64,000 nucleotides of DNA, from assembly GCF_026283925.1 (NCBI RefSeq), contig NZ_JAPDPF010000004.1, forward strand, positions 186,001 through 250,000. The letters are read 5' to 3'. The notes below the pieces were generated by a model that saw only the letters and a list, made by a program, of their open reading frames with translations, had not been told where the DNA came from and made no database searches. Shown piece by piece: positions 10,188-30,067 of the stretch. Source of the DNA: Dyella halodurans. GTDB taxonomy: Bacteria > Pseudomonadota > Gammaproteobacteria > Xanthomonadales > Rhodanobacteraceae. The translations under genes were made by a program, and so were the position numbers. Each line of letters starts with the position of its first letter. The first letter of the stretch is position 1.

Positions 10188-10889
10188 TCAGGCCGACTCG
10201 GTCCAGTGGTCACGAAGAAGAAACCTGAGCCGTTCCAGTGCCTGTTTATGCAGTTGGGAAATGCGTCCCTTGGTTACCTTCAGCCTTTCGGCTACTTCGA
10301 CGAACGGAAGGTGGTGGTAGTAGTGCATGACGACTACAAAGCGCTCCTTTTCCGGCAGTAATTTGACGAACTCGGAGACCAGCGCATCCCTCTCCCGTTC
10401 CTCGGCAGCCGTGTACGCGTCCGCGTGAGCCGCCGGCACCGGAAGCGATTGCGCATCCAACAAGAAGCCCAGCCCAAGTCCTACCGCCGTGGCAACGAAG
10501 GCTTCAAGCGGATCGTCATAGCTATCCTCCTGAATGGACATGGCGCGCTCACGTACGGCGTTGCGGGCTTCGTCCTTGTCGCTAACGCGCCCCGAAGGAT
10601 GCAAGAGCTGCCGGAGTCCATTGAAGACAGAGCCACGCACGCGAAACCTGGCATAAGGTTCGAAGTCGACACCGCGGGAAGGATCGAAGCGGTCAATCGA
10701 CTCCAGCAGCCCGATCAACGCGTTCTGGGCGCAGTCTTCCCAGATGTTTGAGGCACCGTAGATGCGGCAATACACGGACCGAGCGACCTGACGCGCCCAG
10801 TCCGAATGGCGGACGACCAGCTCGCTTCTGGCGTCGACGTCATGATGGTCTCTCCAACGATCCCATAGCTGACGTTCGTTCGCGTCCAA
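10188..10889 (-). CDS. fliA: Sigma-28 family RNA polymerase sigma factor (FliA-like)
   Basis: A 233-aa sigma factor of the FliA/WhiG group and the last gene of the operon, 11 nt after fliP. Region 2 is clear (WEDCAQNALIGLLESIDRFDP at about 50-70, then FEPYARFRVRGSVFNGLR). Region 4 is clear near the C-terminus (LLPEKERFVVVMHYYHHLPF then the helix-turn-helix VAERLKVTKGRISQLHKQAL). The central region is divergent: it lacks the DWVPRSVR stretch of classical FliA and carries a glycine-rich hydrophobic segment (about 132-145). It may therefore read a modified promoter. No FlgM anti-sigma gene is recognisable nearby. A distal position in one big operon fits autonomous control of a secondary system. 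Confidence 0.88.
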   Translation of the reverse strand: MDANERQLWDRWRDHHDVDARSELVVRHSDWARQVARSVYCRIYGASNIWEDCAQNALIGLLESIDRFDPSRGVDFEPYARFRVRGSVFNGLRQLLHPSGRVSDKDEARNAVRERAMSIQEDSYDDPLEAFVATAVGLGLGFLLDAQSLPVPAAHADAYTAAEERERDALVSEFVKLLPEKERFVVVMHYYHHLPFVEVAERLKVTKGRISQLHKQALERLRFLLRDHWTESA

Positions 10890-10900
10890 GCCAGGGCCCC

Positions 10901-11638
10901 TCAGTGATAACTATTCAGCAGCGCCTGAGCCAAGAGCGCCCAGCCGTTGACCAAGAGGAATAGAAGAATCTTGAGAGGCAGGCTAATCGTCGTAGGCGGC
11001 AGCATGATCATGCCCAACGCCATGAGAATGGCCGCGACGACCAGATCAATCAGCAGGAACGGCAGGAAAATGACAAAGCCAATCTGAAAAGCCGTGCGGA
11101 GCTCGCTCAGCATGAATGCCGGTATCAGCTGCAGCGCACCAACCTCGTCGATCGATTTTGGCATCGGCACTTTGGCCATCTGTATGACAGCCCGAAGATC
11201 CTCTTCCCGCGTCTGACGCACCATGAATTGCTTGAAGGGCTCGAAACCCTTGGCAAGCGCCACATCGGCGGAAATCTCATGGCGACTGTATGGATCGATG
11301 GCGGACTGCTTCGCCGCCTCGAATACGGAATTCATCGAGAACAACGTAAGGAAAATCGCAAGCGTCAACAGCACGCTGTTCGGTGGCGTCTGTTGCAGGC
11401 CAAGAGCGCTCCTGAGCAGCGACAGCACGACGATGATCCGCGTGAAGCTGGTCAGCGCAATGACCAGCAATGGCAGGAAAGCCAGCGCAGACAGCATCAC
11501 GAAGGAACGCAGCACCGGCGAGTAATCGTCGTTGGCCAGCCGACTGAAGAGCCCGGGCATGGGCTCGCTGTGAAGCACACTGCAGGCAAACAGACAGGTA
11601 ACGCCGCACAGCAGTGCGGTCCAAAAGCGCGGCCTCAT
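10901..11638 (-). CDS. fliP: Flagellar-type export gate protein FliP
   Basis: A 245-aa polytopic inner-membrane protein, one of the three proteins (with FliQ and FliR) that form the export channel. It has an N-terminal hydrophobic signal-like segment (about 7-22), then helices near 45-65, 88-105, 185-210 and 220-240. Family motifs TSFTRIIVVLSLLRSALGLQQTPPN and IGFVIFLPFLLIDLVVA are visible. Its start overlaps the fliO stop by 4 nt (ATGA). Confidence 0.96.
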   Translation of the reverse strand: MRPRFWTALLCGVTCLFACSVLHSEPMPGLFSRLANDDYSPVLRSFVMLSALAFLPLLVIALTSFTRIIVVLSLLRSALGLQQTPPNSVLLTLAIFLTLFSMNSVFEAAKQSAIDPYSRHEISADVALAKGFEPFKQFMVRQTREEDLRAVIQMAKVPMPKSIDEVGALQLIPAFMLSELRTAFQIGFVIFLPFLLIDLVVAAILMALGMIMLPPTTISLPLKILLFLLVNGWALLAQALLNSYH

Positions 11639-12024
11639 GGCGCGCTCTCCTGCCCTTCCTGGGACGAGGGCATCATGTGAATCTGGGCCGTTGCCCCTCG
11701 AACTGACTCCACGACCAGAAATTCCCGGTCACCACGGGCAAGCACATGTACGACCGTGAATGCGCTGACTCGCCTGGAAGCGCGAAGCGACAGCCCCGAA
11801 CGATCACCTGGTGCGGCTGATCCACGGAACGCCATGCCATCGAACCAGCCCTTTTTTCGCGCCACGTAAAGTGCCGCGATCACTGCGACGAGAAGCAACG
11901 ATACGGCGAGCATGGCAAACACGAACCGGTCCATCGAAACGGTCGATTCGGAGCGAAACGGCAACCCGGAAGACGCTGGTGCGGCTTGAATGAGGGCCAG
12001 CCCAAGGCTTCCACTTCGAAACAT
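11635..12024 (-). CDS. fliO: Flagellar-type export accessory protein FliO
   Basis: A 129-aa bitopic protein with one membrane segment (about residues 32-52, FVFAMLAVSLLLVAVIAALYV) and a small cytoplasmic domain, as in FliO, which helps assemble the FliP ring. Its position between fliN and fliP is the canonical order. It follows the fliN stop by one base and overlaps fliP by 4 nt. Confidence 0.85.
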   Translation of the reverse strand: MFRSGSLGLALIQAAPASSGLPFRSESTVSMDRFVFAMLAVSLLLVAVIAALYVARKKGWFDGMAFRGSAAPGDRSGLSLRASRRVSAFTVVHVLARGDREFLVVESVRGATAQIHMMPSSQEGQESAP

Positions 12025-12025
12025 G

Positions 12026-12331
12026 TCAGAGGATCTCCGAGATCTTGACGCCGAACTGATCGCCCACAGCTACCAGGTGCCCCTTGGCCACCACCTTGCC
12101 GTCCAGCCGAATCGTTACTGGCTCGTCCATGCCAGCATCCAGTGCCACCACGTCGCCCTTAGCCAGGGAAAAGAGGCGCTCTACCGAAACGCTTGCTCGG
12201 CCAACGAGCACGTCTAGCTGGACATTGACGTGACCCAATAAGGAAAGATTGCGCTTGATGAGCGGATGGGCTTCCTGGGCTTCCCCTTTGACTTGCGGGA
12301 CCCCGGCAGTTGCAGCAAGTTCTTCGTTCAT
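12026..12331 (-). CDS. fliN: Flagellar motor switch / C-ring protein FliN
   Basis: A 101-aa protein with a complete SpoA domain at about 30-101 (VQLDVLVGRASVSVERLFSLAKGDVVALD, then VVAKGHLVAVGDQFGVKISEI). FliN forms the C-ring base and the FliH docking site. The length is shorter than E. coli FliN (137) but normal for the conserved core. Confidence 0.95.
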   Translation of the reverse strand: MNEELAATAGVPQVKGEAQEAHPLIKRNLSLLGHVNVQLDVLVGRASVSVERLFSLAKGDVVALDAGMDEPVTIRLDGKVVAKGHLVAVGDQFGVKISEIL

Positions 12332-12346
12332 GTCGATTTTCCGAGC

Positions 12347-13096
12347 TCAGATGGAATGGGTAAGCGTGATGACACGCGAGGACTCGCCTTCACCCAGCCT
12401 CGCGAAGGCCACCGTATTAACGCCGGTGACCCGTACCTCGACGGGCGCAGTCAGCAAGGCGTCGCCGACGAGTACTTCACCGATCCGCAGGTCGTCCAGT
12501 TGCGAGAGCTGCGCGCTGCCCAGCGGGATGCAGACTTCCAGCGACACGTTGGCACCGTTGATCGCCTGTGAGCGGGACGTCAAAGCCGCCTTCTCGTAAT
12601 GCTTCGGGGGTGCCAGAAGATCCGCGAATGCCCGGTCCATGGCGAGGGCGAGCGTATAGCTGCCGAGAGACAGCGTGGCCATGTAAGCGCCCAACTCCAA
12701 CCTTTGGTACGCACCGACTCCGTTTTTGTCTTCAGTGACGACCTGGACGGGAGCCCCCGCGCGGCGGCCAAGCCGGCTGGCCAAGTCCGCCAGCGAGCGT
12801 CCGCCAACTCGTGCGGCAAGCGCGGAGGCGTCATCTTCGAGGTGCGCGGCGAGGTGACTCCCCAGGGCAGCTTCACCCTTGTGTGGAATCAACTGGAGTG
12901 TTCCCGCGCCCACCCGCCATGTGGCGGGCGATTCTTCAACGGACGCCCACTCGTCAAGCGGGTACACGTCGATGGCGGCGGCGGAATGCGCCATCCACCA
13001 CTCTCGCGACCATTCGGAGACTTCGCGAACCAGCAGAGCATGCAATTCGATGCGCCGCGACTCGCCCAGCCACCCAAAACGTACTGGATCGATCAT
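12347..13096 (-). CDS. fliM: FliM-position C-ring protein with one SpoA domain, resembling SctQ more than FliM
   Basis: A 249-aa protein in the fliM slot. A SpoA-type domain is visible at about 175-249. Canonical FliM is about 330 aa, starts with a CheY-binding LSQxEIDALL peptide and has a CheC-like middle domain. Here the first residues (MIDPVRFGWLGESRR) show no such peptide and the 1-170 region is not recognisably CheC-like. Size and layout resemble the injectisome protein SctQ/HrcQ. It should still build a C-ring with FliN but may not respond to CheY. It overlaps the flgE stop by one base (TGATG). Confidence 0.75.
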   Translation of the reverse strand: MIDPVRFGWLGESRRIELHALLVREVSEWSREWWMAHSAAAIDVYPLDEWASVEESPATWRVGAGTLQLIPHKGEAALGSHLAAHLEDDASALAARVGGRSLADLASRLGRRAGAPVQVVTEDKNGVGAYQRLELGAYMATLSLGSYTLALAMDRAFADLLAPPKHYEKAALTSRSQAINGANVSLEVCIPLGSAQLSQLDDLRIGEVLVGDALLTAPVEVRVTGVNTVAFARLGEGESSRVITLTHSI

Positions 13097-14262
13097 CAGC
13101 CGCCCCGCGTCGAATCGTAAAGCTGCTGCAGCATGTCGCTCGATACCGTCATGACCCGTGAACTGGCCTGATAGCCGCGCTGAATCACGATCATATCGGC
13201 GAGCTCCTGGGTCAGGTCGACATTCGACATTTCCAGGCTGCTACCGTCGATCTTTCCGAATACCGTCGAGCTTGGCCGACCGACCTGGGCAATCTGGGTC
13301 TGCGGTTGAAGATAGAGATTTCCCTGGATCATCTGCAGGCTTGACTCGTCCTGGAATGTCGCCAGTGCGAGTTGTGGGCCGGCCTTGGTTTCGCCGTCCG
13401 CATAGGCAAGCTGCAAGGTGCCGGTCGTGTCGAAACTTTCCGAAGAAAGACCCACGACGCCGTGGCCGTCCTTGACCTGGGCCGCGAGCGTGGACGCCGT
13501 GCCGGAAAACGTCGTCGTCCCTGACAGTCCGCCCGCCGTACCAAAACTAAAGGCCAAGGCTTGAGGCGTTGGACCCCAGCTCGCATTGGCGGTTACGCTG
13601 GTATAGCCGGGCTGCAAGGTACCGTCCGTAGCGAATCGAATTTCGCCGCTTCCGAGCGACGTTCCCCCGGCATCGGTCACACTCACCAGCCAGCTCCCTG
13701 GCGTCACCGAGGTATTGCTGGTGAGCGTCACCGTGAGCACATGTGAATTGCCCTGGGCGTCATAGACCGTCACGTTGTTGACGGTATCCGAAGGACTGGT
13801 TGGATCGACGTTGCCTGCCATCGAAATACTGCTCGTGGCCTGTGCCGGAAGCTTTTCCAGCGACGAGATATCGATGGGGCCGTAGCTCCCGTTCGTAGCG
13901 TAGCCAAGCACGAGATACTGGTTGACGGAGTCGACCAACTGTCCCTTGTCGTTGAATTCAAACTGCCCGGATCGCGTGTAATACGTGGTGCCCTGCGGGT
14001 CCTGCAGTATGAAAAACCCCTTGCCGTCGATCGCCACGTCGGTGCTGGTGCTGGTTTGCTCGATCTGACCCTCGCTCAGGTCGAGACCGGTGCCAGCGAC
14101 CCGGGATCCGTTGTCATCGAGCACGTTTTCCATGAACGAATCGCTTCCGCGAAACCCGGGCGTGTTCATGTTGCTCACGTTGTTGCTGATCGTATTCAAC
14201 GTCTGAGAGAAGCTGAAAAGGCCAGAAACACTGTTGTAGAGCGCTTGCATGATGCTTGGCAT
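13096..14262 (-). CDS. flgE: Flagellar hook protein FlgE
   Basis: A 388-aa hook subunit exported through the type III gate. The N-terminal rod/hook motif (LYNSVSGLFSFSQTLNTISNNVSNMNTPGF, about 8-37), a FlgE D1/D2 middle with many Thr/Ser/Gly, and the C-terminal signature (SNVDLTQELADMIVIQRGYQASSRVM, about 345-370) are all present. The length is close to the usual 400. The start has GAGG 8 nt upstream; a second ATG four codons in is possible. Confidence 0.95.
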   Translation of the reverse strand: MPSIMQALYNSVSGLFSFSQTLNTISNNVSNMNTPGFRGSDSFMENVLDDNGSRVAGTGLDLSEGQIEQTSTSTDVAIDGKGFFILQDPQGTTYYTRSGQFEFNDKGQLVDSVNQYLVLGYATNGSYGPIDISSLEKLPAQATSSISMAGNVDPTSPSDTVNNVTVYDAQGNSHVLTVTLTSNTSVTPGSWLVSVTDAGGTSLGSGEIRFATDGTLQPGYTSVTANASWGPTPQALAFSFGTAGGLSGTTTFSGTASTLAAQVKDGHGVVGLSSESFDTTGTLQLAYADGETKAGPQLALATFQDESSLQMIQGNLYLQPQTQIAQVGRPSSTVFGKIDGSSLEMSNVDLTQELADMIVIQRGYQASSRVMTVSSDMLQQLYDSTRGG

Positions 14263-14272: not shown

Positions 14273-14692
14273 TCAAGGGGTTACGAGCTGGATCTGGGAC
14301 AAGCCGACATTGGTAATGACGCTGCTCGTGCCCGTGGTAATCGTCATCTGCACACCACTGCTGGTGTACTGGATACCGGTGACCTTGCCGGTCGTGGTCG
14401 AACCGTCCGCGTTGGTCACTTGGACGGTGTGCGACAACAGGCCGAGCGACTGGTCAGAAGAATCCAGTGTCAGCAGGTTATTGATGCCGCTGACCTCCTC
14501 GCTCTGTTGCTCGATGCTCACGAACTGCGCCAGCTGCGTAAGAAACTGACTATTGTCGAGCGGCTGCATGGGATCCTGGAATTGCAGCTGGCTTACAAAC
14601 AGTTTGATGAAATCTTGCTCGTTGATCCCCGAGTTCGACAGTGTTGACGGATCGGTCGTACTCAGCGCATTGCCGATGGCTTCGACGGACAT
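14273..14692 (-). CDS. flgD: Hook-cap scaffold FlgD, short form
   Basis: A 139-aa protein. The N-terminal FlgD motif (DFIKLFVSQLQFQDPMQPLDNSQFLTQLAQFVSIEQ, about 27-62) is well conserved. The following part fits only a small beta domain, whereas typical FlgD (about 220 aa) has Tudor-like plus FnIII-like domains. It is probably a minimal hook cap. GAGGAG lies 8 nt before the ATG. It lies between fliK and flgE with 10-nt gaps. Confidence 0.9.
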   Translation of the reverse strand: MSVEAIGNALSTTDPSTLSNSGINEQDFIKLFVSQLQFQDPMQPLDNSQFLTQLAQFVSIEQQSEEVSGINNLLTLDSSDQSLGLLSHTVQVTNADGSTTTGKVTGIQYTSSGVQMTITTGTSSVITNVGLSQIQLVTP

Positions 14693-14702: not shown

Positions 14703-15509
14703 TCAATCGATATTCATGGACGACCAGATCTCATGGCCGTTCCACATGATGCTTTGCAGGGTCATCCCCTGCCCCTTCATCTGTTGGACGAGGCCCGTCG
14801 CCAGCTGGCGCGCCTCATCCTCGGAAAGCATGTAGTCGCGCAACCAGGCAACGTATTTCCCGTCTGGCCGCGCGATCAGTCGCAGTGCTCGTTGATGCCA
14901 TCTGAGCTCGCTCGACGCCCCTGCGCCAGACTGCGGCAGCGCCAAAGCTTCCGGGGCTTCCTGTGACTCGGTCGTGCCGGTCATCGGGACGAACACATTG
15001 GTCCAGCCAAGATCCGCAGCCTCGCCCACCGCGCCCTCGACCGTAGCGAATGTCGTAGCCGCGTCGTCCGGCGATGCATGCTGGATATCAAGATCGCCGG
15101 TACTGATCGCTTCCCGGGTGAGGCGAGGGTCATTTGCCTGCGCACTACGGGCAGCCAGGCGATATTCGGAAAGATAGCCCGAGGCCTGCAGATGGAGACC
15201 AAAGACCCGAGCCGACAAGACCTGCTCCACCGTGGCAAGGTCCGACACGGCGTACGGGTCGCCGGTGGACGCCTCGGCAAGGGAACTCTCACCCTCGCTC
15301 AGCGCAGGCAATGGCGCGTCGCGTGAGGTTTCACCGCGTACTTCGGCGTCCTGCTTGACTGCCTCCTGGGTTGCGTCCTGGCGTGAGGAGTCGGCGGACT
15401 TTCGCGGCGGCTCCTTCTTCAACTCATCGGCAAAATCATTGGCCGACACTTGAGACTGGCTGCTCGACGCGCGCCCCTGCAAGCCGGGGACCGGAGACAA
15501 ATCCATCAT
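14703..15509 (-). CDS. fliK: Hook-length control protein FliK
   Basis: A 268-aa protein with a polar, low-complexity N-terminal half and a folded C-terminal part (about 190-268, WHQRALRLIARPDGKYVAWLRDYMLSEDEARQLATGL). This is the layout of FliK, a secreted molecular ruler that switches FlhB specificity. Similarity is weak and the call rests largely on position between fliJ and flgD. The start ATGATG overlaps the fliJ stop. Confidence 0.65.
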   Translation of the reverse strand: MMDLSPVPGLQGRASSSQSQVSANDFADELKKEPPRKSADSSRQDATQEAVKQDAEVRGETSRDAPLPALSEGESSLAEASTGDPYAVSDLATVEQVLSARVFGLHLQASGYLSEYRLAARSAQANDPRLTREAISTGDLDIQHASPDDAATTFATVEGAVGEAADLGWTNVFVPMTGTTESQEAPEALALPQSGAGASSELRWHQRALRLIARPDGKYVAWLRDYMLSEDEARQLATGLVQQMKGQGMTLQSIMWNGHEIWSSMNID

Positions 15510-15955
15510 GCCTCTTCCCCATGCTGCATCCACAGTTCAAGTGAGTCCGCCAATAGTCGTCCCTCGATTTCTCGGGTCACCTCGTGGCGGCGCTGCGTGA
15601 GTTCCTCTTCGACGCCGTCAGCGAAGCGCTGGGCAGACCCGGCCGCCAATCCTCGCGCGCTCTGTTCGGCTTGAGCCTCTTGCAACACGTCGACGGCTGC
15701 TTCGCGGCGAACCTGCAGTGAATCGTGAAGCTCGGTCAGCATCCAGTATTCGCCGAGATGCAAGCTGCCGTCACTGCTGATGCAGCGCTCGCGGGCAGTT
15801 GAAGCGGCCACACAAAGGGAGGACGCCTGATCGACATGGCTCGAAGCAGCCTGCTCGGCGCGGCTTGCCTCAGCGAGCGCCATCGAAGCCTGTGCGGCCT
15901 TGACTCGCGCGATACGATTCAGAACATCGTAGGAGCGGACCGAAGACTTGCTCAT
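15506..15955 (-). CDS. fliJ: FliJ-like export ATPase stalk protein
   Basis: A 149-aa, almost wholly alpha-helical protein rich in Ala, Glu, Arg and Gln with heptad patterns, as expected of FliJ, the two-helix coiled coil in the centre of the FliI hexamer. Sequence identity to FliJ is not obvious; the position after fliI with a 4-nt overlap and the fold-type composition support it. Confidence 0.75.
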   Translation of the reverse strand: MSKSSVRSYDVLNRIARVKAAQASMALAEASRAEQAASSHVDQASSLCVAASTARERCISSDGSLHLGEYWMLTELHDSLQVRREAAVDVLQEAQAEQSARGLAAGSAQRFADGVEEELTQRRHEVTREIEGRLLADSLELWMQHGEEA

Positions 15956-17280
15956 GCGGCTTCGCCTGAAACGACTTCGCGAAGCAAGCGCATGCTCGAC
16001 TCTCTCGAACAGCGTTCACCGGGCGACTGGCGGATGAACTCCACGATGCGCGGTTGCCGGCGCAGGGCGTCGTCGAGCGCCGGATTGCTACCCGCCTGAT
16101 AGGCCCCCATCTCGACCAAGTCGCGCGATGACTCATAGAGCGCCACCATGGCGCGCGTCTGTCGCATCAAATCCAGCTCTTCGGCCTGGCAAACCTTGGC
16201 CTGCAGGCGACTGACGCTCGACAGCAGATCGATGGCGGGCAGTTGCCCGCGTGCGGCCAGATCTCGCGAAAGCACGATGTGGCCGTCGAGGATGGCGCGC
16301 ATATGATCCGCCACGGGCTCATTCATGTCGTCGCCCTCCACCAGCACGCTATAAACGGCTGTTATCGTGCCGGCACCTTTAAGGCTGCCTCCCCGTTCGA
16401 GGATCTGCGGCAACAGATTGAAGACTGACGGCGGGTAGCCGCGCGACGTGGGCGGCTCGCCAGCGGCCAAACCGACTTCGCGCTGAGCCATGGCGAAACG
16501 GGTGATGGAATCGATCACCAACAGAACATCGAGCCCAAGCTCTCTGAAGTGTTCTGCAACCGCATGGGCCGCATGCACTGCATGTGTTCGCGTCAAAGCC
16601 GGCTGATCGGCTGTGGCAACGATCAGCACCGAGCGCTCACGTCCTTCCTTGCTCAGCGCATCCTGGAGGAAGTCGGTCACTTCGCGGCCACGCTCGCCGA
16701 TCAGGCCAACGACGATCACATCGGCTCGAACATGGCCCGCGAGCATGCCAAGCAAGGTGCTCTTGCCCACGCCGCTTCCCGCGAAAATGCCAACGCGCTG
16801 GCCCTTGGCCAGCGGCATCAGGCCATCGATGACTTTTACACCCGTCTCAAGTCCCTCGTTCAAGGGGGCCCGGGCCATGGGGTTGACGGCCTCGCCATGG
16901 ATGTCGCGCTCGGCCGTGGCGCGAAACGCCGGCTTGCCATCCAGCGGGGCGCCGAAGGCATCGAGCACGCGCCCGATCATCTCCTTGCCCACGGGAATAC
17001 GCGAGCGCCGACCCAGTGCTTCCACCGTGGCGCCAATGGGCATGCCGCGCAAATGGCCAAACGGCATCAGGAGGACCCTGCCTTCGCGAAAGCCGACGAC
17101 TTCGGCCAAGACTGGACCGTCCGAACCATGGCCCGAAACCCGGCATAGTTCGCCGATCAGAGCATCCGGGCCTTCAGCCTCGATAGCCAGTCCATTGAAC
17201 GCCACGAGGCGGCCAAGGCGACGAACCATCGCCGTCTCCGCCAGGGCCGCTCGAAACTTCATCACCGTGGCGGAGGTCAC
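15952..17280 (-). CDS. fliI: Flagellar-type export ATPase FliI
   Basis: A 442-aa F1-beta-like ATPase. Walker A is GSGVGKST (near 168-175); the Walker B region (LDVLLVIDSITRFAMAQREVGLAAGEPPTSRGYPPSVF) and the FliI/SctN signature GSLKGAGTITAVYSVLVEGDD are intact. It energises unfolding and delivery of substrates. It starts with GTG overlapping the fliH stop (GTGA). Confidence 0.97.
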   Translation of the reverse strand: MTSATVMKFRAALAETAMVRRLGRLVAFNGLAIEAEGPDALIGELCRVSGHGSDGPVLAEVVGFREGRVLLMPFGHLRGMPIGATVEALGRRSRIPVGKEMIGRVLDAFGAPLDGKPAFRATAERDIHGEAVNPMARAPLNEGLETGVKVIDGLMPLAKGQRVGIFAGSGVGKSTLLGMLAGHVRADVIVVGLIGERGREVTDFLQDALSKEGRERSVLIVATADQPALTRTHAVHAAHAVAEHFRELGLDVLLVIDSITRFAMAQREVGLAAGEPPTSRGYPPSVFNLLPQILERGGSLKGAGTITAVYSVLVEGDDMNEPVADHMRAILDGHIVLSRDLAARGQLPAIDLLSSVSRLQAKVCQAEELDLMRQTRAMVALYESSRDLVEMGAYQAGSNPALDDALRRQPRIVEFIRQSPGERCSRESSMRLLREVVSGEAA

Positions 17281-20519: not shown

Positions 20520-20521
20520 GA

Positions 20522-20890
20522 TCAACCCCTGCCTGCCAGCGCAAGCTGCATGAGCGAAAAACGTCGGGAAAGTACGGCCGTCATCGTCTGATAGTCGGAG
20601 CTGGCCGCCTCGAGATCGGCGACCTCCCCGTCCAGGTGCACTGCCACGTCGTCGGCATCGGTGGTGGCCACCGCCGACAGGCTCGTACGATTGCCTTCGA
20701 TGCGCAGGTTCGCGCTATTCATTCCCGGGTCGACCGCCGCCTGGTGCAGCAGTCCGATCGCCTGACTGAAATCCGCGCGCTGCGCACGAAATCCCGGGGT
20801 ATCGACGTTGGCGATGTTGGCGCTCGCGAGCTCGGCACGAGTGCGTGCCATCCCCATGCTGAGACGCAATGCTTCGGTGGTTAGATCCAT
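20522..20890 (-). CDS. flgB: Proximal rod protein FlgB
   Basis: A 122-aa FlgB of usual length. The N-terminal motif (RTRAELASANIANVDTPGFRAQRADF) and a C-terminal helix (YQTMTAVLSRRFSLMQLALAG) are conserved. Confidence 0.94.
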   Translation of the reverse strand: MDLTTEALRLSMGMARTRAELASANIANVDTPGFRAQRADFSQAIGLLHQAAVDPGMNSANLRIEGNRTSLSAVATTDADDVAVHLDGEVADLEAASSDYQTMTAVLSRRFSLMQLALAGRG

Positions 20891-22598: not shown

Positions 22599-23289
22599 CT
22601 TCGACCACTCCCTTATCTGTCACCCGTGCTCGCACAGGTTCATCGGCACCCTCGACGAGGACCGGAACGACGTCTCCCGTATTCCCCATTTCGTTGGCTA
22701 CACCGCGCGTCGCCAGGTGGATATCACCGTAGCTCGCGAGCACACGAACCTTCTCTTGCCGATCAACATCCGGAATCTTTTCGAAATCGCTCCATAAAAC
22801 GGCGGCTCCCGCCTGAACCGGTTTGCGCAGGCGCATTCCAGCGAGTTCCGTCGGGGCGTCGATGGGCTCTTCCTGTAATGCCGCCACGTCCACTTCCGTC
22901 GATTGAATCCGCAGTGCCGAAGCCAGGACGCCGATGGGCGCGTGTTCCCCATAGGTGAGCACCTTGTCCTGGATGCTCACGGCAAACCACACCGTCGCCG
23001 ATCGCATCACCCGACCATCAACCAGCACATCCACCGGCACGCCAACGCGGGGCCGTGGCCACCGGCCACTGATGGGATGCACCTGAAGGCTGACGACGCC
23101 GGCGGGTACACGTACATCCTCTGGCGTACCGATGGGAGCCAGCGACGCCTCCCCGGTGCTCGGCAGGTGCCCGCGCAGCGCATCCTGAGCCGCGCCAACG
23201 AGGCGCGACGCCGCCACTTCCTGCGGGGCATTCGCCGCGAGGAGACGCAGTGGCAACAAGATCGCGAGCGCGAAAAGGAAGTAGCGCAT
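22588..23289 (-). CDS. flgA: P-ring assembly chaperone FlgA
   Basis: A 233-aa periplasmic protein with a signal peptide (MRYFLFALAILLPLRLLAANA). The C-terminal SAF/FlgA part (LRKPVQAGAAVLWSDFEKIPDVDRQEKVRVLASYGDIHLATRG) is clear. It helps FlgI assemble. It follows flgG by 2 nt. Confidence 0.92.
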   Translation of the reverse strand: MRYFLFALAILLPLRLLAANAPQEVAASRLVGAAQDALRGHLPSTGEASLAPIGTPEDVRVPAGVVSLQVHPISGRWPRPRVGVPVDVLVDGRVMRSATVWFAVSIQDKVLTYGEHAPIGVLASALRIQSTEVDVAALQEEPIDAPTELAGMRLRKPVQAGAAVLWSDFEKIPDVDRQEKVRVLASYGDIHLATRGVANEMGNTGDVVPVLVEGADEPVRARVTDKGVVEVVQ

Positions 23290-23291: not shown

Positions 23292-24059
23292 CTACTGGCG
23301 AAGATTGTTGATGGTGTCGAGAATCTGGTCCGAAGCCTGCAACACGCGGGCGTTCAGCTGATAGGCGCGCTGTGCGATGACCAACGACGACATTTCAGTA
23401 ACCATGTCGACATTGGAGCTCTCCAACGAACCCTGGAGAATGCTGCCCGTGCCGTTCTCGTTCGCCTTCTCCACGCTCGGGTCGCCAGAAACCTGGGTAG
23501 CGACGAAGTTGTTGCCACCCACGGACTGCAAGCCATCCGGGGATGGAAATATGCTCAGTTCGATGGTGCCCAACAGCGTTTGGGTCGCGCTACCACCCAC
23601 GTTCGCGTAGATCTGGCCGCTCTGATTGATCTGGATTTGCGCAGCGTCGGGCGGGATCTGGATGTTCTGCGCCAGGCGATTGCCGTCGACGGTGGCCAGA
23701 TAGCCTTCACTGTCTACATGCAGCTGGCCGGCACGCGTATAGAGATGGTTGCCATTACTGTCGGCGATCTCCAGAAAGCCGCTGCCCTGAATGCCAATAT
23801 CCCAGGTGTTGTTCGTCTGCGTCATTTGGCCTTGCGAAAACAACGCCGTAGTGGCAATGATTTCCGAACCCGCTCCGGCGCTCTCCGGCGGCAGGCCCGC
23901 TGCCACCTGTGCCGGCGAAATCGTCGTGATGTCGCCAAAGGCGACGCGCTTGGCCTTGAAGCCGGGCGTCTGCATGTTGGAGATATTGTTCGACAGGGTG
24001 TCGATTTGACTCTGCTGGCTCTTCAGGCCGGAGGTAGCGATATAAAGCGCGTCAATCAT
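23292..24059 (-). CDS. flgG: Distal rod protein FlgG
   Basis: A 255-aa FlgG of nearly standard length (260). N-terminal DALYIATSGLKSQQSQIDTLSNNISNMQTPGFKA and C-terminal SSNVDMVTEMSSLVIAQRAYQLNARVLQASDQIL motifs are intact. Start at 24059 is supported by GAGG 8 nt upstream and by homologue length. Confidence 0.96.
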   Translation of the reverse strand: MIDALYIATSGLKSQQSQIDTLSNNISNMQTPGFKAKRVAFGDITTISPAQVAAGLPPESAGAGSEIIATTALFSQGQMTQTNNTWDIGIQGSGFLEIADSNGNHLYTRAGQLHVDSEGYLATVDGNRLAQNIQIPPDAAQIQINQSGQIYANVGGSATQTLLGTIELSIFPSPDGLQSVGGNNFVATQVSGDPSVEKANENGTGSILQGSLESSNVDMVTEMSSLVIAQRAYQLNARVLQASDQILDTINNLRQ

Positions 24060-24069
24060 GGTCGGATCC

Positions 24070-24747
24070 TCAGGCGTTGTCGCCAAGATGGGAAACACCG
24101 CTCTGCATGGCGGCGTCATAGGCTTGAATCGCCCGTTGCACGGACTGTGCGTGTCGAGTCACTTCCATCAGACGCACCATCTCGGTGCCAGGGTCGACAT
24201 TCGACCGCTCCAGCGCACCCTGGTGCAGCGTGCCGTTCCAGTCGTTCGTCGTACCGCTATAGGCATACAGGCCATCGCCGATCTCGCGCAGTCCGTTGGC
24301 ATCCGCAATGCCCACGATTCTCAGCGTATCGACATTCTTTTCGCCGTCCTTGATGGCGCCGTCGGCGCCAATCTGCACTGCGGCGCTGTCGAGCGTGATG
24401 GGGCCGGATTCGCCCATCACGGTGCGGCCCATGGCGTCCACCAGCTGCTTATCCTCATTCAGATGAAACTGGCCGTTTCGCGTCAGCCGCTCCTGGCCAT
24501 TCACATCGACGACGAAGAAGCCTTGCCCCTGTATGGCAAGGTCCAGGGATGCGCCCGTCTTGTCGAGGTCGCCATCCAGCATGCTGAGGGCGCGATCGCT
24601 ACCTGCAGTCGCTGCACGGAAATCAGTCTTGAGGCGCTCCGTGCGATAACCGGCAGTGCGCATGTTTGCTACGTTCTGGCCAATAACGTCGAGTGACTCG
24701 ACGTCACGGCTGAGATAGCTGGCGATACTGGAAATGACGCTGCTCAT
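24070..24747 (-). CDS. flgF: Proximal rod protein FlgF
   Basis: A 225-aa FlgF (usual 250). It has the LDVIGQNVANMRTAGYRTERLKTDF rod motif, the LDLAIQGQGFFVVD element common to rod/hook proteins, and a C-terminal SNVDPGTEMVRLMEVTRHAQSVQRAIQAYD helix. Confidence 0.94.
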   Translation of the reverse strand: MSSVISSIASYLSRDVESLDVIGQNVANMRTAGYRTERLKTDFRAATAGSDRALSMLDGDLDKTGASLDLAIQGQGFFVVDVNGQERLTRNGQFHLNEDKQLVDAMGRTVMGESGPITLDSAAVQIGADGAIKDGEKNVDTLRIVGIADANGLREIGDGLYAYSGTTNDWNGTLHQGALERSNVDPGTEMVRLMEVTRHAQSVQRAIQAYDAAMQSGVSHLGDNA

Positions 24748-24754: not shown

Positions 24755-26815
24755 TCATGGGGACACAGTGACGACGCCGAAGGACTTCACCGCCAGAGAC
24801 GCCGGCACCTCGTTGATGCCAAGCACGGTGATATGGGGAAGGCTGCGCTGTACCAGCGCACGCAGGTGCCGGCGCAGTGCGCTCGGGCAAAGCAGGACGG
24901 GGAGATGGTTGCGCACCATCATGGCTTCGGACTGCTTCGCCAGTCCGCCCAGCAAGGATTCGAGTTGTCCCGCGTCGCTGAGCATCAGGCTCGCGCCTTC
25001 GCGTTGCCTCAGCGCAGCGACAATATTGCGTTCGAGTTCGGCGGCCAAGGTCAGCACGTGCAGCTCGCCCTGCGCATTGCTCACGCGCTGGCAGATCACC
25101 GGGCCCAGGCGTTCGCGCACACGCTCGACCAGCTCATCCGTTTGCTTGTAGGTCTTGCCGGCATCGACAAGCACCTCAAGTATCGCTTCCGTGTTGCGGA
25201 TGCTCACCTGCTCTTTCAACAGCTGCTGGAGCACCTTTTGCACGTCGGTGTAGGACATGACGCCAGGAATCAGCTCGTCCACCAGTGACGCTTGTTGTTC
25301 GCGCACGCGCGCTACCAGGCGCTCCGTCTCTGCCCGCGTCAGCAGTTCCGGCGCGTGCCGCTTCACCACCTCGCCGAGATGGGTGATGAGCACGGTTTCC
25401 GGGTCGACCAAGGTATAGCCCGCGCCACGTGCGAACTGCCGCTGCTCCGGTGAAATCCAGAGCGCTGGCAGGCCGTAAGCAGGGTCCTTGGTTTCCCGCC
25501 CTTCCAGGCGCGGACGCTTGCCGCCCGGATCGATAGCCAGGAGCGCGTCAAAGTGCAGCTCACCCTTGCCAACGCGCGAGCCCTGCACATGAATCTCATA
25601 GCCCCGCTCGGCCAGCGGCGCTTCCTGGATGAGTTTCACCTTCGGCAGGATGAAGCCGGCCTCCAGGGCGTACTGCTTGCGGTACGTCGCGATGCGTTCG
25701 CCCAGATCCAGATTCTTGGCCTTGTACGTCGCCACGATGGCCGTACCGAGATGAATCTCGACGGGCTCGACCGCCATCAACTTGTAGATGTCTTCCTCGG
25801 AGCGACCCGCCACAGGCTCTGGGTCGACCTGCTCGGCGTCCTCCGCCGGGTTCAAGCGCTTGTCCCGCACAGAGAAGAAGATCATGGCGACAACGCCAGC
25901 CAGCACCACGAGTACCGGCCACGCAGGCAAGCCCGGGAGCGTCATCACGCCCATGAGTGCCACCGCAACAATCAGTAGCGTGCGCGAATTGGACAAGACC
26001 TGACGCGTCACCTCGGTACCGAGTTGTGCGTCGGAAGCAGCGCGGGTGATGATGATGCCCGTCGCGACGGCAATCACCAGGGACGGAATCTGCGTCACGA
26101 TGCCGTCACCGACGGTCAGCAGCGTGTACTGATGGGCAGCTTCGGACCATGGAAGGCCCCGCTGAAGCATACCAACCGCCAAGCCGCCAATGATGTCGAT
26201 CAGGATGATCATGATGCCGGCAATGGCATCGCCCTTCACGAACTTGGTGGCACCGTCCATCGCGCCATAAAAGCTCGCCTCCCGCTCCACCAGTGCGCGG
26301 CGACGCTTGGCCTCATGCTGGTCGATGAGACCCATGTTCATGTCCGCATCGATGCTCATCTGCTTGCCGGGCATGCTGTCCAGCGTGAAGCGCGCCGCGA
26401 CTTCCGCCACGCGCTGCGCACCACTGGTGACCACGACGTATTGCACGACGACCAGAATGAGAAACACCACCAGGCCAATCACGTAGTTGCCGCCCACCAC
26501 GTACGAGCCGATCGCATTGATCACTCGCCCGGCATTGCCCTTGTCCAGGATCAAACGCGTGGCGGAAATGTTCAGCGAGAGCCGAAACAGCGTGGTGATG
26601 AGCAGCAACGATGGAAACGTCGAGAAACTCAGCGGCGTCTCAGTAAAGAACGTAATCAGCAGCACCAGGAGCGCCGCCGTGAAGTTCAAAACCAACAAGA
26701 AATCGAGCAGCCCTGGCGGAATGGGCGTGAACAGGATGACAAGGATGCCAACCATGCCCAGCACCAGCGCCATATCGCGCTTGCCGCTCCAGAACTGTGC
26801 AAAAAGCGCGCTCAC
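24755..26815 (-). CDS. flhA: Flagellar-type export gate protein FlhA
   Basis: A 686-aa inner-membrane gate protein. About eight membrane helices in the first 320 residues include the FHIPEP-region sequence (SMPGKQMSIDADMNMGLIDQHEAKRRRALVEREASFYGAMDGA). A large cytoplasmic domain follows that forms the nonameric substrate-docking ring. The start is GTG at 26815, overlapping the flhB stop as GTGA; a longer open frame to 26953 lies inside flhB and would exceed the family length. Confidence 0.96.
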   Translation of the reverse strand: MSALFAQFWSGKRDMALVLGMVGILVILFTPIPPGLLDFLLVLNFTAALLVLLITFFTETPLSFSTFPSLLLITTLFRLSLNISATRLILDKGNAGRVINAIGSYVVGGNYVIGLVVFLILVVVQYVVVTSGAQRVAEVAARFTLDSMPGKQMSIDADMNMGLIDQHEAKRRRALVEREASFYGAMDGATKFVKGDAIAGIMIILIDIIGGLAVGMLQRGLPWSEAAHQYTLLTVGDGIVTQIPSLVIAVATGIIITRAASDAQLGTEVTRQVLSNSRTLLIVAVALMGVMTLPGLPAWPVLVVLAGVVAMIFFSVRDKRLNPAEDAEQVDPEPVAGRSEEDIYKLMAVEPVEIHLGTAIVATYKAKNLDLGERIATYRKQYALEAGFILPKVKLIQEAPLAERGYEIHVQGSRVGKGELHFDALLAIDPGGKRPRLEGRETKDPAYGLPALWISPEQRQFARGAGYTLVDPETVLITHLGEVVKRHAPELLTRAETERLVARVREQQASLVDELIPGVMSYTDVQKVLQQLLKEQVSIRNTEAILEVLVDAGKTYKQTDELVERVRERLGPVICQRVSNAQGELHVLTLAAELERNIVAALRQREGASLMLSDAGQLESLLGGLAKQSEAMMVRNHLPVLLCPSALRRHLRALVQRSLPHITVLGINEVPASLAVKSFGVVTVSP

Positions 26816-27885
26816 GAGAAAATCCTGTTGCCGGAACGGCCCATCAACCAGCGGTAGACGGGTGCCAGCTGGGCGTAAAGATGATCGGGCACGGGTTTGT
26901 CGACGTTGCACTCGCGGAACAACGCCCGTGCCAATGCGGGTGAACGCAAGCACGGCACGCCAGAAACCGCTGCCTTGCTGCGCATGGCAGCGGCGACGGC
27001 GTCCGTGCCCTTGGCCAGCACCACGGGCGAACGCATCGTGCGCGGTCGGTATTGCAATGCCACGGCGAGATGGGTGGGATTGGTCAGTACGACGTCGGCG
27101 TCGGGGACACGGCGAATCGAACGCGATTGCTTCAGCAACTCCACCATGAGTCGCTTGCGCTTATGCCGGATGTCCGGATCGCCTTCACGGCGCTTCACTT
27201 CATCCTTGATGTCGTTGCGACTCATGCGCAATTTGCGCAGGTACTCGCGACGCGAAAACAGCAGATCCATGAGCGCTACGAAGGCCAGTACGGCAAGCAC
27301 CCAGGTCGTGACGCGAACGTAGACAGATCGCATCAACTCGCCCGCAGCGCTGGGTGCGGCAGTCGCCGTGGCCAGCACCTGATGCTGCAGCGACCCGGTC
27401 AACCACCACGCCATGCCGGCCAGCAACGACACCTTGAAGACGAGCTTGAACAGGTCCCAGAGCAGCCGCAGCGAAAAAATCCGTTTGAAGCCCTGCGCGG
27501 GATTCAAACGGGAGAAATCCGGTTTCAGTGGCTCGGTGCTGAACACGGGACCGGTCTGCACCAGGTTGGCAATCACGGCGGTAACGAGCAGCGCGATGAC
27601 CAGTGGGATCATGGCCTGCCACACGGGCCTGAAGGTCGCGGCAATCCACAACACCAGACTGACCGACGGCGACGGCGCGTTGCCGGCCATCAGCATCATC
27701 CGCTGGAAACAATGCGCCCAGACACCTGCCAGCGAATGCGCGATGGCGCACAAGGTGATGCTGAAGACCACCGTCACCAGCAGGCCGGTCACCTCCGTAC
27801 TACGCGGGACCTGGCCCTTGTTCCGGGCCTCCTGCAGGCGGAAGGGCGTGGGTTGTTCCGTCTTGCTCTGCTCGTTCTCGGCCAT
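26812..27885 (-). CDS. flhB: Export specificity switch protein FlhB
   Basis: A 357-aa protein with four membrane helices (about 32-52, 90-112, 143-165, 188-208) and a cytoplasmic domain. The autocleavage motif NPTH is intact at 269-272, so the normal switch from rod/hook to late substrates is possible. This is notable because no late substrate genes lie here. It opens one base after the fliR stop. Confidence 0.96.
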   Translation of the reverse strand: MAENEQSKTEQPTPFRLQEARNKGQVPRSTEVTGLLVTVVFSITLCAIAHSLAGVWAHCFQRMMLMAGNAPSPSVSLVLWIAATFRPVWQAMIPLVIALLVTAVIANLVQTGPVFSTEPLKPDFSRLNPAQGFKRIFSLRLLWDLFKLVFKVSLLAGMAWWLTGSLQHQVLATATAAPSAAGELMRSVYVRVTTWVLAVLAFVALMDLLFSRREYLRKLRMSRNDIKDEVKRREGDPDIRHKRKRLMVELLKQSRSIRRVPDADVVLTNPTHLAVALQYRPRTMRSPVVLAKGTDAVAAAMRSKAAVSGVPCLRSPALARALFRECNVDKPVPDHLYAQLAPVYRWLMGRSGNRIFS

Positions 27886-27886: not shown

Positions 27887-28654
27887 TCAATGGACCCCGG
27901 CCATCGGCAGCGCAGAGAACGCCCCGCGGAACAAGCGTTCGATCAGCGGTGGCGAAAAGCGAAGCGTCGCCGCCAGTAGCGTGAATCCAGCCAGCACCTT
28001 GAGCGGCAGTGCCACGAAATAGATATTGGCCTGGGGCATCGATCGGCTGGCGTAGGCCGTTCCCAGGTCAATGGCGAACAAGCCGAGGATCACAGGCAGC
28101 ACCACCATCAGGCCCAGCAGGAACTGGGTGGATAGCAGACTCATGAATACCGTTGGCGAAACCACGATGCGGCCGCTACCCAGCGGCACCAGATTCAAGG
28201 ACGAGACCAGCCCTCGCAGCAGGACCAAGTGCAGTCCCAGGGCAAAGAACACCACCATGCCGCCCCACTGGATCACCGTGCCAAACAACGACTCGGTGGT
28301 GTGCGTCGAGGGGTTGAGCAGGCTCGCTGCCGCCACACCCGACTGCATGTCGACCATGCGCGCCGCAAATCCGAGTGCCGCGGTGGGCAGTACGACCGCG
28401 AGCGCAAACGTGAGACCGACCAGGCTCTCGCCGCCCATGGCCAGCCCAAGCAACACCGGCGATTCCATCGTGCCGGCGGCAACGGTAGCCGCTCCCGCCG
28501 CGCCCACCGCCGTCAAAGCAAGCGCAATCACCACGACGATACGCACCGTTCCCGGCACCCAAGCCAAGGGGCCAAGCGCCGGCACCATCAGCAACGGCGC
28601 AAAACGCGCCATGGCCAACAGAAACGTCGCGACATCCCTTTCGAGTACTTCCAT
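27887..28654 (-). CDS. fliR: Export gate protein FliR
   Basis: A 255-aa membrane protein with about six hydrophobic helices. The FliR core (FAPLLMVPALGPLAWVPGTVRIVVVIALAL near the start and the ARMVDMQSGVAAASLLNP region) is recognisable. It belongs to the FliPQR export channel. AGGAG lies immediately before the ATG, overlapping the fliQ stop region. Confidence 0.95.
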   Translation of the reverse strand: MEVLERDVATFLLAMARFAPLLMVPALGPLAWVPGTVRIVVVIALALTAVGAAGAATVAAGTMESPVLLGLAMGGESLVGLTFALAVVLPTAALGFAARMVDMQSGVAAASLLNPSTHTTESLFGTVIQWGGMVVFFALGLHLVLLRGLVSSLNLVPLGSGRIVVSPTVFMSLLSTQFLLGLMVVLPVILGLFAIDLGTAYASRSMPQANIYFVALPLKVLAGFTLLAATLRFSPPLIERLFRGAFSALPMAGVH

Positions 28655-28659
28655 AACTC

Positions 28660-28923
28660 CTACATTCCCGCCACAAGACCAAACAGATGCTGCGTGAACT
28701 CCACCACGACAGCCATCATCCAGGCGCCTGTCATCACAAACATCGCGACCACGACGACAAGCTTCGGAATGAAGGTCAGCGTCATTTCCTGGATCTGCGT
28801 GACCACCTGCACGATCGAAATCACGACACCCACCAGCAAGGTGGCGACCAGGATCGGCGCGCTCACCTTGGCCGCCGTCAGCAGTGTCTGCGCCAGCAGA
28901 TGCATGGCGACATCAGTGTCCAC
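28660..28923 (-). CDS. fliQ: Export gate protein FliQ
   Basis: An 87-aa protein (usual 89) with two membrane helices. The SAPILVATLLVGVVISIVQVVTQIQEMTLTFIPK core is diagnostic. The GTG start at 28923 was chosen because AGGAG lies 7 nt upstream and the length then matches the family. It overlaps the end of the TPR gene by 11 nt. Confidence 0.95.
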   Translation of the reverse strand: MDTDVAMHLLAQTLLTAAKVSAPILVATLLVGVVISIVQVVTQIQEMTLTFIPKLVVVVAMFVMTGAWMMAVVVEFTQHLFGLVAGM

Positions 28924-30067
28924 GCGGGCGCTCCTGTGCCGGACGCAGCAGGTTTCGCAGCGTGTAGACAAACTCCGGCGAGATTGGCGTGCTTCCTTTC
29001 AGGGAAGAAGCCGTCAGCGACTGAATAATCGCCTGGGCTTCTGCTTCCCTACCCTCGTCGAGCAGCAACACGCTCTGTGCGTAGCGCGCCGAACGTCCGT
29101 TCGGATCAAGGCGCAACGCGCGCTTGATGGCTTCACCAGCCGCTTCCTTTTCACCACGCAACGCATGGATCAACGCACGGCCACCGTGGGTTTCTCCAAA
29201 CGTTCGATCCAAGGCAAACGCGTTGTCGAAGCTCTGTTGCGCGCCATCCAGGTTTCCCTGCAGCAGCTGGCACCACGCCAGCGCATGCCAGGTACCGATG
29301 TGCTCGGGCATGTAGGTTGCTGCGCGATCCAGCACGGCCCTGGCGGCGACGATATCGCCCCGCATCATCAAGCCTTCCCCTAGCCCGAGGTAGGCCCTGC
29401 CCGCGTTTGGCTGCGCGGCAATCAGCTGCTGAAACATGGGTACGGCGACATCGTCGCGTCGATCCCATAAGGCCAACGTGCCGCTGACCAAACCGGCATC
29501 GAACTGGGCAGGATCTTCGTTCAAGGCCTGCGTCGCTGCTTGCGCCGCCTCGGCTGTCTGGCCGTCATCAAGCAGCAGCATGGCGCGCAAGCCATGGAAC
29601 TCCGCGTGGCGCCCCCCCTGGGGCACACCGTCCAAAATCACCAGGGCTTCAGCGATTCGCTGCTGGTGATACAGGATGCGCGCCTTCAACAATGCAAGCG
29701 CTGCGGCGGCATCGGCTTCCGGAGATGCTGCCAGAGATAGCGTGCCAAGCGCTTCGTCCAGTTGGCCGAGCCGAAACTGCGCGAATGCAAGGTCGTGACA
29801 TAGTCCGCCAGGCACGGGCCGCATGGTCGATGCAAGCGGTTGCAACAGCGCCACCGCGTTCACGAAGTCGCCGTCCACGAGCGCGCAACGCGCTTCGCGA
29901 AACAGCACGCCAGGCAGGCTTCGCAACGCTAGTGGAGCTTGCTGCAAACGCTGCCTTGCCCGCGCCACCTGCCCTTCGATCAGCAATTGATCGAGCAAGT
30001 CGCAAAGCAGGTCGACGTTGGCCGGATCGCGATCCGCGAAAGCCTCCAGTGAGGCAAGGCGGCTCAC
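28913..30067 (-). CDS. Tetratricopeptide-repeat protein, first gene of the flagellar-type operon
   Basis: A 384-aa soluble protein built of helix pairs with TPR consensus spacing (LAFAQFRLGQLDEALGTLSLA, AYLGLGEGLMMRGDIVAARAVLDRA, WHALAWCQLLQGNLDGAQQSFDNAF, HALRGEKEAAGEAIKRALRLDP). About eight to nine repeats fill the chain. There is no signal peptide. The start is GTG with AGGGG upstream. Because it overlaps fliQ it must belong to the operon. TPR proteins in type III systems act as chaperones or assembly scaffolds, which would fit, but the function is not shown. Confidence 0.85.
   Translation of the reverse strand: MSRLASLEAFADRDPANVDLLCDLLDQLLIEGQVARARQRLQQAPLALRSLPGVLFREARCALVDGDFVNAVALLQPLASTMRPVPGGLCHDLAFAQFRLGQLDEALGTLSLAASPEADAAAALALLKARILYHQQRIAEALVILDGVPQGGRHAEFHGLRAMLLLDDGQTAEAAQAATQALNEDPAQFDAGLVSGTLALWDRRDDVAVPMFQQLIAAQPNAGRAYLGLGEGLMMRGDIVAARAVLDRAATYMPEHIGTWHALAWCQLLQGNLDGAQQSFDNAFALDRTFGETHGGRALIHALRGEKEAAGEAIKRALRLDPNGRSARYAQSVLLLDEGREAEAQAIIQSLTASSLKGSTPISPEFVYTLRNLLRPAQERPRGH

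Follow-up and report, generated by a model that had tools for sequence, protein, structure and literature searches.

What may a set of flagellar-type genes serve for, if it lacks the genes of filament and stator? This question is raised by a gene block at positions 10188-30067 of the Dyella halodurans DNA analysed here (a stretch of 64,000 nucleotides from contig NZ_JAPDPF010000004.1, hereafter the window), which encodes an export gate, an ATPase, an MS ring, a rod, P and L rings, a hook, a hook cap and a sigma-28-like factor. We consider it probable that the block specifies a secretion machine consisting of a hook-basal body without filament, which probably does not rotate, and in which a giant, variable-tailed protein resembling polymorphic toxins would take the place of flagellin as late substrate. 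Two observations carry this reading: the block persists in relatives that have no flagellin, and the conserved N-terminal head of the giant protein, whose gene lies in the flank of the block, mostly goes together with the block across genomes.

Gene content of the block

The genome of D. halodurans (4.69 Mb in 25 contigs, estimated completeness 100%) holds the block as 26 open reading frames (ORFs), minus strand throughout, with neighbours overlapping or at most 15 bases apart. An initial annotation, made without database searches, had described 25 genes in one minus-strand block; the strand, the coordinates and the content hold, while the count is corrected to 26 ORFs. Twenty of them have been named via Pfam, i.e., all except the ORFs of FliO, FliM', FliK, FliJ, FliH and FliG'. 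In reading order, from 30067 to 10188, the ORFs are the following.

28913..30067, minus strand: TPR protein recurring with the system (Pfam TPR; NCBIfam SycD and SctY below cut-off among other TPR models)
28660..28971, minus strand: FliQ (Pfam 5.8e-24)
27887..28654, minus strand: FliR (Pfam 2.1e-40)
26812..27885, minus strand: FlhB with NPTH motif (Pfam 1.5e-103; motif search)
24755..26953, minus strand: FlhA (Pfam FHIPEP 4.7e-239)
24070..24747, minus strand: FlgF rod (Pfam FlgE/F/G D1 7.6e-13 and position)
23292..24119, minus strand: FlgG rod (Pfam FlgE/F/G D1 8.7e-21 and position)
22588..23289, minus strand: FlgA chaperone (Pfam ChapFlgA 1e-15)
22008..22598, minus strand: FlgH L ring (Pfam 4.5e-41)
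20899..22026, minus strand: FlgI P ring (Pfam 1.3e-118)
20522..20890, minus strand: FlgB rod (NCBIfam FlgB 2.2e-12, below cut-off)
20103..20525, minus strand: FlgC rod (Pfam Flg_bbr_C 1.2e-11 and position)
19804..20106, minus strand: FliE (Pfam 4.3e-22)
18355..19797, minus strand: FliF MS ring, 480 aa, short cytoplasmic tail (NCBIfam fliF 1.7e-63; tail alignment)
17909..18385, minus strand: reduced FliG (FliG'), 158 aa, FliG-N and one more ARM-type domain
17277..18044, minus strand: FliH/SctL-like, real start probably further downstream (NCBIfam SctL 2.4e-7, below cut-off)
15952..17280, minus strand: FliI ATPase (Pfam ATP-synt_ab 2e-83, T3SS_ATPase_C)
15506..15955, minus strand: FliJ-like candidate (position alone)
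14703..15533, minus strand: FliK-like ruler candidate (position alone; Pfam and NCBIfam without match)
14273..14692, minus strand: FlgD hook cap, short (Pfam FlgD 8.1e-17)
13096..14262, minus strand: FlgE hook (Pfam FlgE_D2, Flg_bbr_C)
12347..13096, minus strand: reduced FliM (FliM'), 249 aa, middle domain and SpoA, without the N-terminal segment (AlphaFold, Foldseek)
12026..12331, minus strand: FliN (Pfam FliMN_C 4.8e-19)
11635..12024, minus strand: FliO-like (NCBIfam FliO E 0.006, weak, and position)
10901..11638, minus strand: FliP gate (Pfam FliP 8.5e-72)
10188..10889, minus strand: sigma-28-like sigma factor of the sigma-70 family (Pfam Sigma70_r2/r4; nearest NCBIfam FliA/WhiG, below cut-off)

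In the 26 block ORFs and the 13 flank ORFs scanned, no match to flagellin, FliD, FliS, FlgK/L, FliL, MotA/B or CheY was obtained at E <= 0.001 (whole genomes were not searched for FliD, FlgK and FlgL). This agrees with the initial annotation, where filament, stator and chemotaxis genes were said to be absent from block and flanks. There is no secretin among the 26 block ORFs either, and FlgH and FlgI are present in its stead. The NPTH motif occurs in 39 of 43 FlhB sequences, and in two of the other four the pattern hit a different site first; its retention fits a machine that still switches substrates.

Conservation and distribution

We have searched 233 genomes of the Rhodanobacteraceae with FliG' and found it in 22 of them, from 9 of 26 genera. 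As far as the contigs reach, all 22 keep the same gene order, which bears out the earlier statement that the set is organised and not decaying; undetected are the TPR gene in G021, FliJ in G103, G122, G121 and G158, and FliK in G121, and the TPR gene of G197 is matched only over a short stretch. One more genome, G147, has a divergent machine in the same order, in which FlgA, FliJ and FliK were not detected. It brings the total to 23 of 233, and since it was missed by the FliG' search, being FliG'-negative is not proof of absence.

For the species-genome collection, we considered the best 80 of 309 relatives in a FliF scan. These include Dyella, Rhodanobacter and Oleiagrimonas, and the same order was found in Legionellaceae, Methylophilaceae bacterium 11, Gammaproteobacterium 45_16_T64 and Trinickia terrae, while the lower-ranked rows look like ordinary flagella. 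FliG' searches of a class sample and a phylum sample (E <= 0.001) hit 4 of 369 and 5 of 398 genomes, respectively. Five of these nine have the cluster and were kept (G495, G574, G539, G980 and G942); G470, G931, G922 and G699 were dropped, as no cluster surrounds their FliG' match. Further FliF proteins of similar length, among the best 120 of 2973 matches, belong to Methylophilaceae, Pseudomethylobacillus, Paucimonas and Thiodiazotropha. In addition, the top 3 of 100 listed FliF matches in 72,556 plasmid records all carry the cluster, namely Undibacterium sp. YM2 pUYM01 (where the stretch read gave no match to the TPR gene), Variovorax sp. PDNC026 and Burkholderia ubonensis pMSMB2035; the last is typed as conjugative, and its FliM' and FliN are not separately annotated. 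Overall, the machine is found in Gamma- and Betaproteobacteria and is partly plasmid-borne.

A FliF tree was built from 57 of the 98 collected rows (12 of 22 from the family, 9 of 9 from Legionella, 8 of 8 others, and 18 of 34 plus 10 of 25 canonical ones, with injectisome proteins left out). In this tree one split, with support of 100/99, separates the 29 systems of the present type from the 28 canonical proteins, ten of which come from the same order. Such a single branch is hard to reconcile with a decaying flagellar relic, a view that could appeal to the shortness of FliG, FliM, FlgD and the FliF tail, to split frames in two Legionellaceae loci (L136, FlhA and FlgI; L139, FlhA and FlgG), and to the FlgI of pUYM01 in two pieces. 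With the same order and open frames in 22 family genomes and NPTH retained in FlhB, we give this view a negligible chance and have rejected it. The split frames in L136 and L139 may come from assembly error or from decay, the two not being told apart. As for pUYM01 (L246 17546-18678), FlgI is annotated as two adjacent coding sequences, and the copy may be broken or mis-sequenced.

Independence from the primary flagellum

A true secondary flagellum would rotate and would borrow flagellin, hook-associated proteins and stators from a primary set. Actually, the genome of D. halodurans could lend such parts, as its contig C6 carries a separate primary flagellum (three Flagellin_N matches, FliF of 564 aa, FliG of 336 aa), and MotB is present as well. 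The hook, the hook cap and the sigma-28-like factor of the block would also suit a flagellum, and 19 of the 22 carriers possess flagellin (in 17 of the 19 it shares a contig with full-length FliG). However, neither flagellin nor FliG-C was found in three carriers of 99-100% completeness (G170, G197 and G256, which comprise Oleiagrimonas citrea, Dyella sp. S184 and Rhodanobacteraceae ZG21-1). The MotB plug is missing from three of the eight carriers tested for it, and these are the same three; MotA was not searched in whole genomes. Since complete-grade carriers keep the cluster without flagellin, FliG-C and MotB, the machine does not depend on a borrowed filament. Searches of 17 distant carriers likewise gave no flagellin in Legionella maceachernii and in a Tatlockia metagenome-assembled genome.

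The reverse comparison points the same way. Canonical FliF exists in all 20 genomes of the genus searched and the cluster in 5 of them, leaving 15 with canonical FliF and no cluster. The inspection of the rest of the genome that the initial annotation had suggested does reveal a primary set with flagellin. That the machine has no filament genes and is independent of flagellin is well supported, and we have rejected the secondary flagellum with borrowed filament, one of the two options of that annotation. Some relatives show hints of more stator or flagellar sets, i.e., a second FliG_C match (G106:C23:243125-243442) and second MotB matches in G002, G106 and G108.

Reduced switch proteins

The switch of the machine is reduced, a feature that the initial annotation had not noticed. 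FliG' has 158 aa as against about 336 aa for an ordinary FliG, and its profile alignment spans FliG residues 5-150 only; its relatives in the fold search are FliG. FliG_C has no match at the FliG' place in any of the 22 genomes (E <= 0.001). With a Pfam threshold of E <= 1, 14 of 21 FliG' members match MgtE_N, which has a related fold, 2 match FliG_N, and FliG_M and FliG_C are matched once each. We collected 70 FliG' proteins in total, of which none has a Pfam domain, and those with a name are called hypothetical or uncharacterized. FliM', of 249 aa, starts where the FliM middle domain starts and aligns to FliM from about residue 41. In its AlphaFold model (pLDDT 84; Foldseek to FliM 1.5e-8) the predicted residues 1-7 match FliM 40-46, and a PDB sequence search with FliM' gave no relative at a meaningful E-value. 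The FliF tail is also short, with 480 aa for the whole protein in the block and 564 aa in the primary flagellum. We regard a loss of rotation as likely, and the machine as probably non-rotating, on the basis of these predicted proteins.

On the other hand, two points weigh against this part of our reading. FliG' resembles FliG only weakly (hhalign probability of 45-56%; E 0.067 in Foldseek). Its second domain can be fitted by fold to FliG-M or to FliG-C, and in several of the alignments it falls on the torque domain (FliG-C) and not on the middle domain (FliG-M). As the second domain can be aligned in this way, loss of torque is not proved, and a rotating secondary flagellum gains an argument. 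Against it stand the half length of FliG', the alignment confined to residues 5-150, the three flagellin-free carriers and the 15 genomes with canonical FliF alone, so that we hold a secondary flagellum to be very improbable.

A giant RHS protein accompanies the machine

The initial annotation took both flanks to carry unrelated genes. The comparison of flanks contradicts this, as two flank genes recur with the machine, a giant RHS gene and a small gene. The features concerned, with the ORF that follows the giant gene, are given below.

36028..50169, minus strand: giant protein of 4,713 aa with RHS repeats and a conserved head at the N-terminus; candidate late substrate (Pfam: RHS_repeat in 17 stretches, He_PIG in 6, LysM in 1; co-occurrence)
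35429..35950, minus strand: small ORF right after the giant gene; candidate immunity gene (position alone; no Pfam match)
30536..30928, plus strand: small protein, 130 aa; anti-sigma or substrate candidate (goes with the sigma factor; no Pfam family)

The head consists of the first 36 residues or so (MVAVIAGNGLGLANTSLTQLGQ...), which are conserved; the DUF6531-like stretch behind it is one that RHS proteins share. At E <= 1e-50, the head profile matches 20 of the 22 FliG'-positive and none of the 211 FliG'-negative family genomes (Fisher 5.8e-27). The figure is 3.0e-22 if five weak-match genomes are counted against the association, and 9.7e-16 (10 of 12 versus 0 of 211) without the ten genomes that gave the profile rows; as related genomes are not independent, all these figures are guides. 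There are six weaker head rows (G030, G140, G142, G147 twice, and G235), of which only those of G147 match columns 1-36, while those of G030, G140, G142 and G235 fall in the general RHS/DUF6531 part, and these four genomes were taken as headless. The weak matches in G147 lie at the very ends of two contigs, and one of them adjoins the machine in the same order. In this way the head sequence has already led to one machine overlooked by the direct search. Within the family, all 21 genomes with the head carry the machine, and the two machines without it (G158 and G210) are in fragmented genomes, 90-91% complete.

Position tells a similar story. In family carriers, 17 of 33 heads are at most 28 kb from the machine, where about 0.5 would be expected (one of 34 strong rows, G109:C16, is a second piece of the same place and was left out). 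Eight of the 22 genomes have a head that begins under 0.7 kb away from the sigma gene and on its strand. Among distant carriers, 20 of 22 have the head, with G495 and G942 having been profile rows. It lies near the machine in G495, G539, G574 and G942, twice in the Methylophilaceae (one on each side of the machine), about 14 kb off on the same contig in Trinickia, and on another contig in 45_16_T64. The head was found in 5 of the 72,556 plasmid records, and two of these are among the three machine plasmids. On the B. ubonensis plasmid (L250), a 14.7-kb gene stands beside the machine, and its product, judged by eye, starts with the same type of head.

As to the nature of the giants, the head motif is present in 98 of 120 listed, and 72 of these 98 lack both Lys and Arg in their first 30 residues, which is unlike a Sec or Tat signal. 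A PDB sequence search with the head gave no relative at a meaningful E-value. At the other end the giants differ: of the 1770 pairs formed by the first 60 listed, no more than 16 match in their final 130 aa. Five ends were scanned for domains: the end beside the machine of Dyella tabacisoli (L043 6808-7707) is Scabin-like (3.6e-21) and also matches, less strongly, two further ADP-ribosyltransferase families, and the end in the window and the three others gave no domain match. Among the best 120 of 373 head relatives there are also Pfam accessions which we take to be of toxin type. A constant head, a repeat body and variable ends make up the pattern of polymorphic toxins, and we think it likely, from this layout and the co-occurrence, that the giant RHS protein is the dedicated late substrate of the machine.

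It is also conceivable that the hook-basal body serves mainly for attachment or surface display, and that the giant repeat protein forms a fibre at the hook tip and is not injected. The retention of FlgE, FlgD and a FliK-like gene would agree with this, as would the Undibacterium head on a 38.8-kb 'tandem-95 repeat' gene. The variable C-termini and the Scabin-like end in D. tabacisoli point instead to toxin delivery, which makes a pure attachment device rather unlikely in our judgement.

Several observations were made beside these giants. The 38.8-kb head gene of pUYM01 (L251 1784-40630) has about 12,950 codons and is annotated as a tandem-95 repeat protein, and no RHS-type repeats show up in its last 2,400 residues when a crude pattern is applied. 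The giant gene of Eleftheria (L249) likewise has a small gene behind it. In the window, ORFs of the DUF5648 and pectate-lyase/beta-helix types lie between the machine and the giant gene (32119-34715).

Regulation

Flagellin has its sigma-28 promoter, for which the textbook consensus is TAAAGTTT-N11-GCCGATAA, and the giant gene shows a similar site.

50223..50249, minus strand: upstream site of the giant gene, sigma-28-like, TAAACTTT-N11-CTGGATAA (12/16 positions as in the textbook consensus; P 0.005 for a random 200-mer)

Against this consensus, 10 of 12 upstream regions of giant genes reach P <= 0.033 per random 200-mer. All 12 best sites are at -80 to -98, and the best of them (14/16) belong to the flagellin-free G170 and G256.

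Of 27 loci with a visible sigma gene, 25 also have the small gene (30536-30928 in the window), the two exceptions ending near a contig end, and it is present on the three machine plasmids as well; it was not seen in the Legionella stretches or in G495, which show no sigma gene. That it encodes an anti-sigma factor is a guess. As the known FlgM it was rejected, having no Pfam match. The small gene itself gave no sigma-28-like upstream site: of 26 regions, 2 reach P 0.033 and the others score worse.

Proposed mechanism and its weighing

If our reading is correct, the reduced FliG/FliM/FliN ring would act as a sorting platform and not as a rotor. Upon completion of the hook, FlhB and the FliK-like protein would switch specificity, and the sigma factor of the cluster would turn on the giant gene, as FliA does flagellin. 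The giant protein might then be exported through the hook or displayed at its tip, and its variable C-terminal part would be delivered on contact. Of the two options that the initial annotation offered, the hook-basal body serving for secretion or contact is supported as the better one, with secretion itself as a putative function. A wider claim, which we advance with nearly even confidence, would place beside flagellum and injectisome a third type III machine: a torque-less, partly plasmid-borne hook-basal body of Gamma- and Betaproteobacteria, with its own putative sigma-28/anti-sigma pair and, as substrate, an RHS/repeat polymorphic toxin of 3,000-13,000 residues marked by a diagnostic N-terminal export head.

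Besides the FliG' alignments and the split frames in two Legionellaceae loci, several points weigh against this reading, and most of them concern the giant protein. Some of them, namely the heads in other genera, the position of the head in Legionellaceae, the headless G980 and the size of the giants, also favour the view that the device is indeed a filamentless one for secretion or contact, but that the giant is a mere associate using another route, the true substrates being others. In Legionellaceae, 13 of 14 have the head, in single copy, and in 13 of 13 its contig differs in length from that of the machine, so that the two are not adjacent. No head match was found in the machine carriers G980 (100% complete), G158, G210 and G264. 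Among head plasmids, Undibacterium KW1 and two of Eleftheria terrae have no machine seen, and none was present within 20 kb in the two that were read. The head is further found in Xanthomonas, Stenotrophomonas, Lysobacter, Duganella and Caulobacter (among the best 120 of 373 relatives), genomes that were not searched for the machine; this is the most serious point left for the cargo reading. To our knowledge, a substrate of 4,700-13,000 residues would be unprecedented for such a channel. For the promoters, two of the 12 upstream regions score no better than P 0.16, and the site of G495 agrees with the consensus in the first half alone; related genomes do not count as independent cases, and these sites could also be served by the main FliA. 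Moreover, all the evidence comes from DNA and predicted proteins.

Nevertheless, head and machine co-occur in 13 of 14 Legionellaceae even though they are not adjacent, the head predicted the missed machine in G147, and the sigma-28-like scores upstream of giants are best in two genomes without flagellin. For these reasons we judge the giant as mere associate to be rather unlikely, and prefer it as the probable cargo of a filamentless machine. If true, this would mean that a hook-basal body has been retained for protein delivery and not for motility, and it suggests an export route for RHS giants whose start is unlike a signal peptide.

Comparison with known systems

The nearest relative in print is a cluster of Legionella, noticed in 2014 as an additional flagella operon (PMC4256840) and named in 2017 the second putative flagellar system (PFS2), which according to its passages on the system has no flaA or fliD and was left undecided between a type III secretion system (T3SS) and a second flagellum (PMC5655016). 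Carriers named in these passages include L. fallonii and L. micdadei (PMC4256840, PMC5655016), and L. worsleiensis, L. quateirensis and L. drozanskii, named in the PMC5655016 review, were recovered here as well. The present block has what defines PFS2 there, i.e., basal body, export apparatus and hook genes with no flagellin or FliD in the cluster (PMC5655016). The Legionella loci analysed share its gene order, the short FliG-like protein and the short FliF tail. They differ from it in that neither a sigma factor nor the small gene was seen in the Legionella stretches, and in that their giant gene lies apart from the machine. Moreover, the passages on PFS2 in these papers mention neither a substrate nor a reduced switch, and do not place the system outside Legionella. 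Our analysis thus bears on the question left in print, T3SS or second flagellum, and extends the cluster to soil bacteria and plasmids. In a literature search, mostly short of full texts, no paper was seen that ties giant RHS proteins to a machine of this kind or that takes PFS2 further.

Secretion by such an apparatus has been considered before: a passage in PMC13288982 cites the flagellar T3SS of a non-flagellated predatory bacterium as secreting antimicrobial toxins in some strains. Secretion via a filamentless flagellar apparatus is hence not new as an idea. The work on this predator is reportedly that of Fulano et al. (2020), and the organism is said to be Lysobacter enzymogenes.

With the flagellum, the block shares homologous gate, ATPase, MS ring, rod, P/L rings, hook, hook cap and a sigma-28-like factor; it differs in that the cluster is without filament, cap, hook-associated and stator genes, that its switch proteins are shortened, and that it has a giant RHS partner. 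With the injectisome, including the Myxococcales form as described in part of PMC3459982, it would share secretion without motility, and its reduced FliG/FliM may be comparable to the sorting platform. Here the block has the FliE/FlgB/FlgC rod, the FlgE hook and the P/L rings, whereas the injectisome has a secretin and a needle. Finally, RHS polymorphic toxin systems, as outlined in passages of PMC3482391, have the same long repeat body, constant N-terminus and variable C-terminus, but the giant in this work is distinguished by an N-terminal head of its own, which is tied to a flagellar-type machine.

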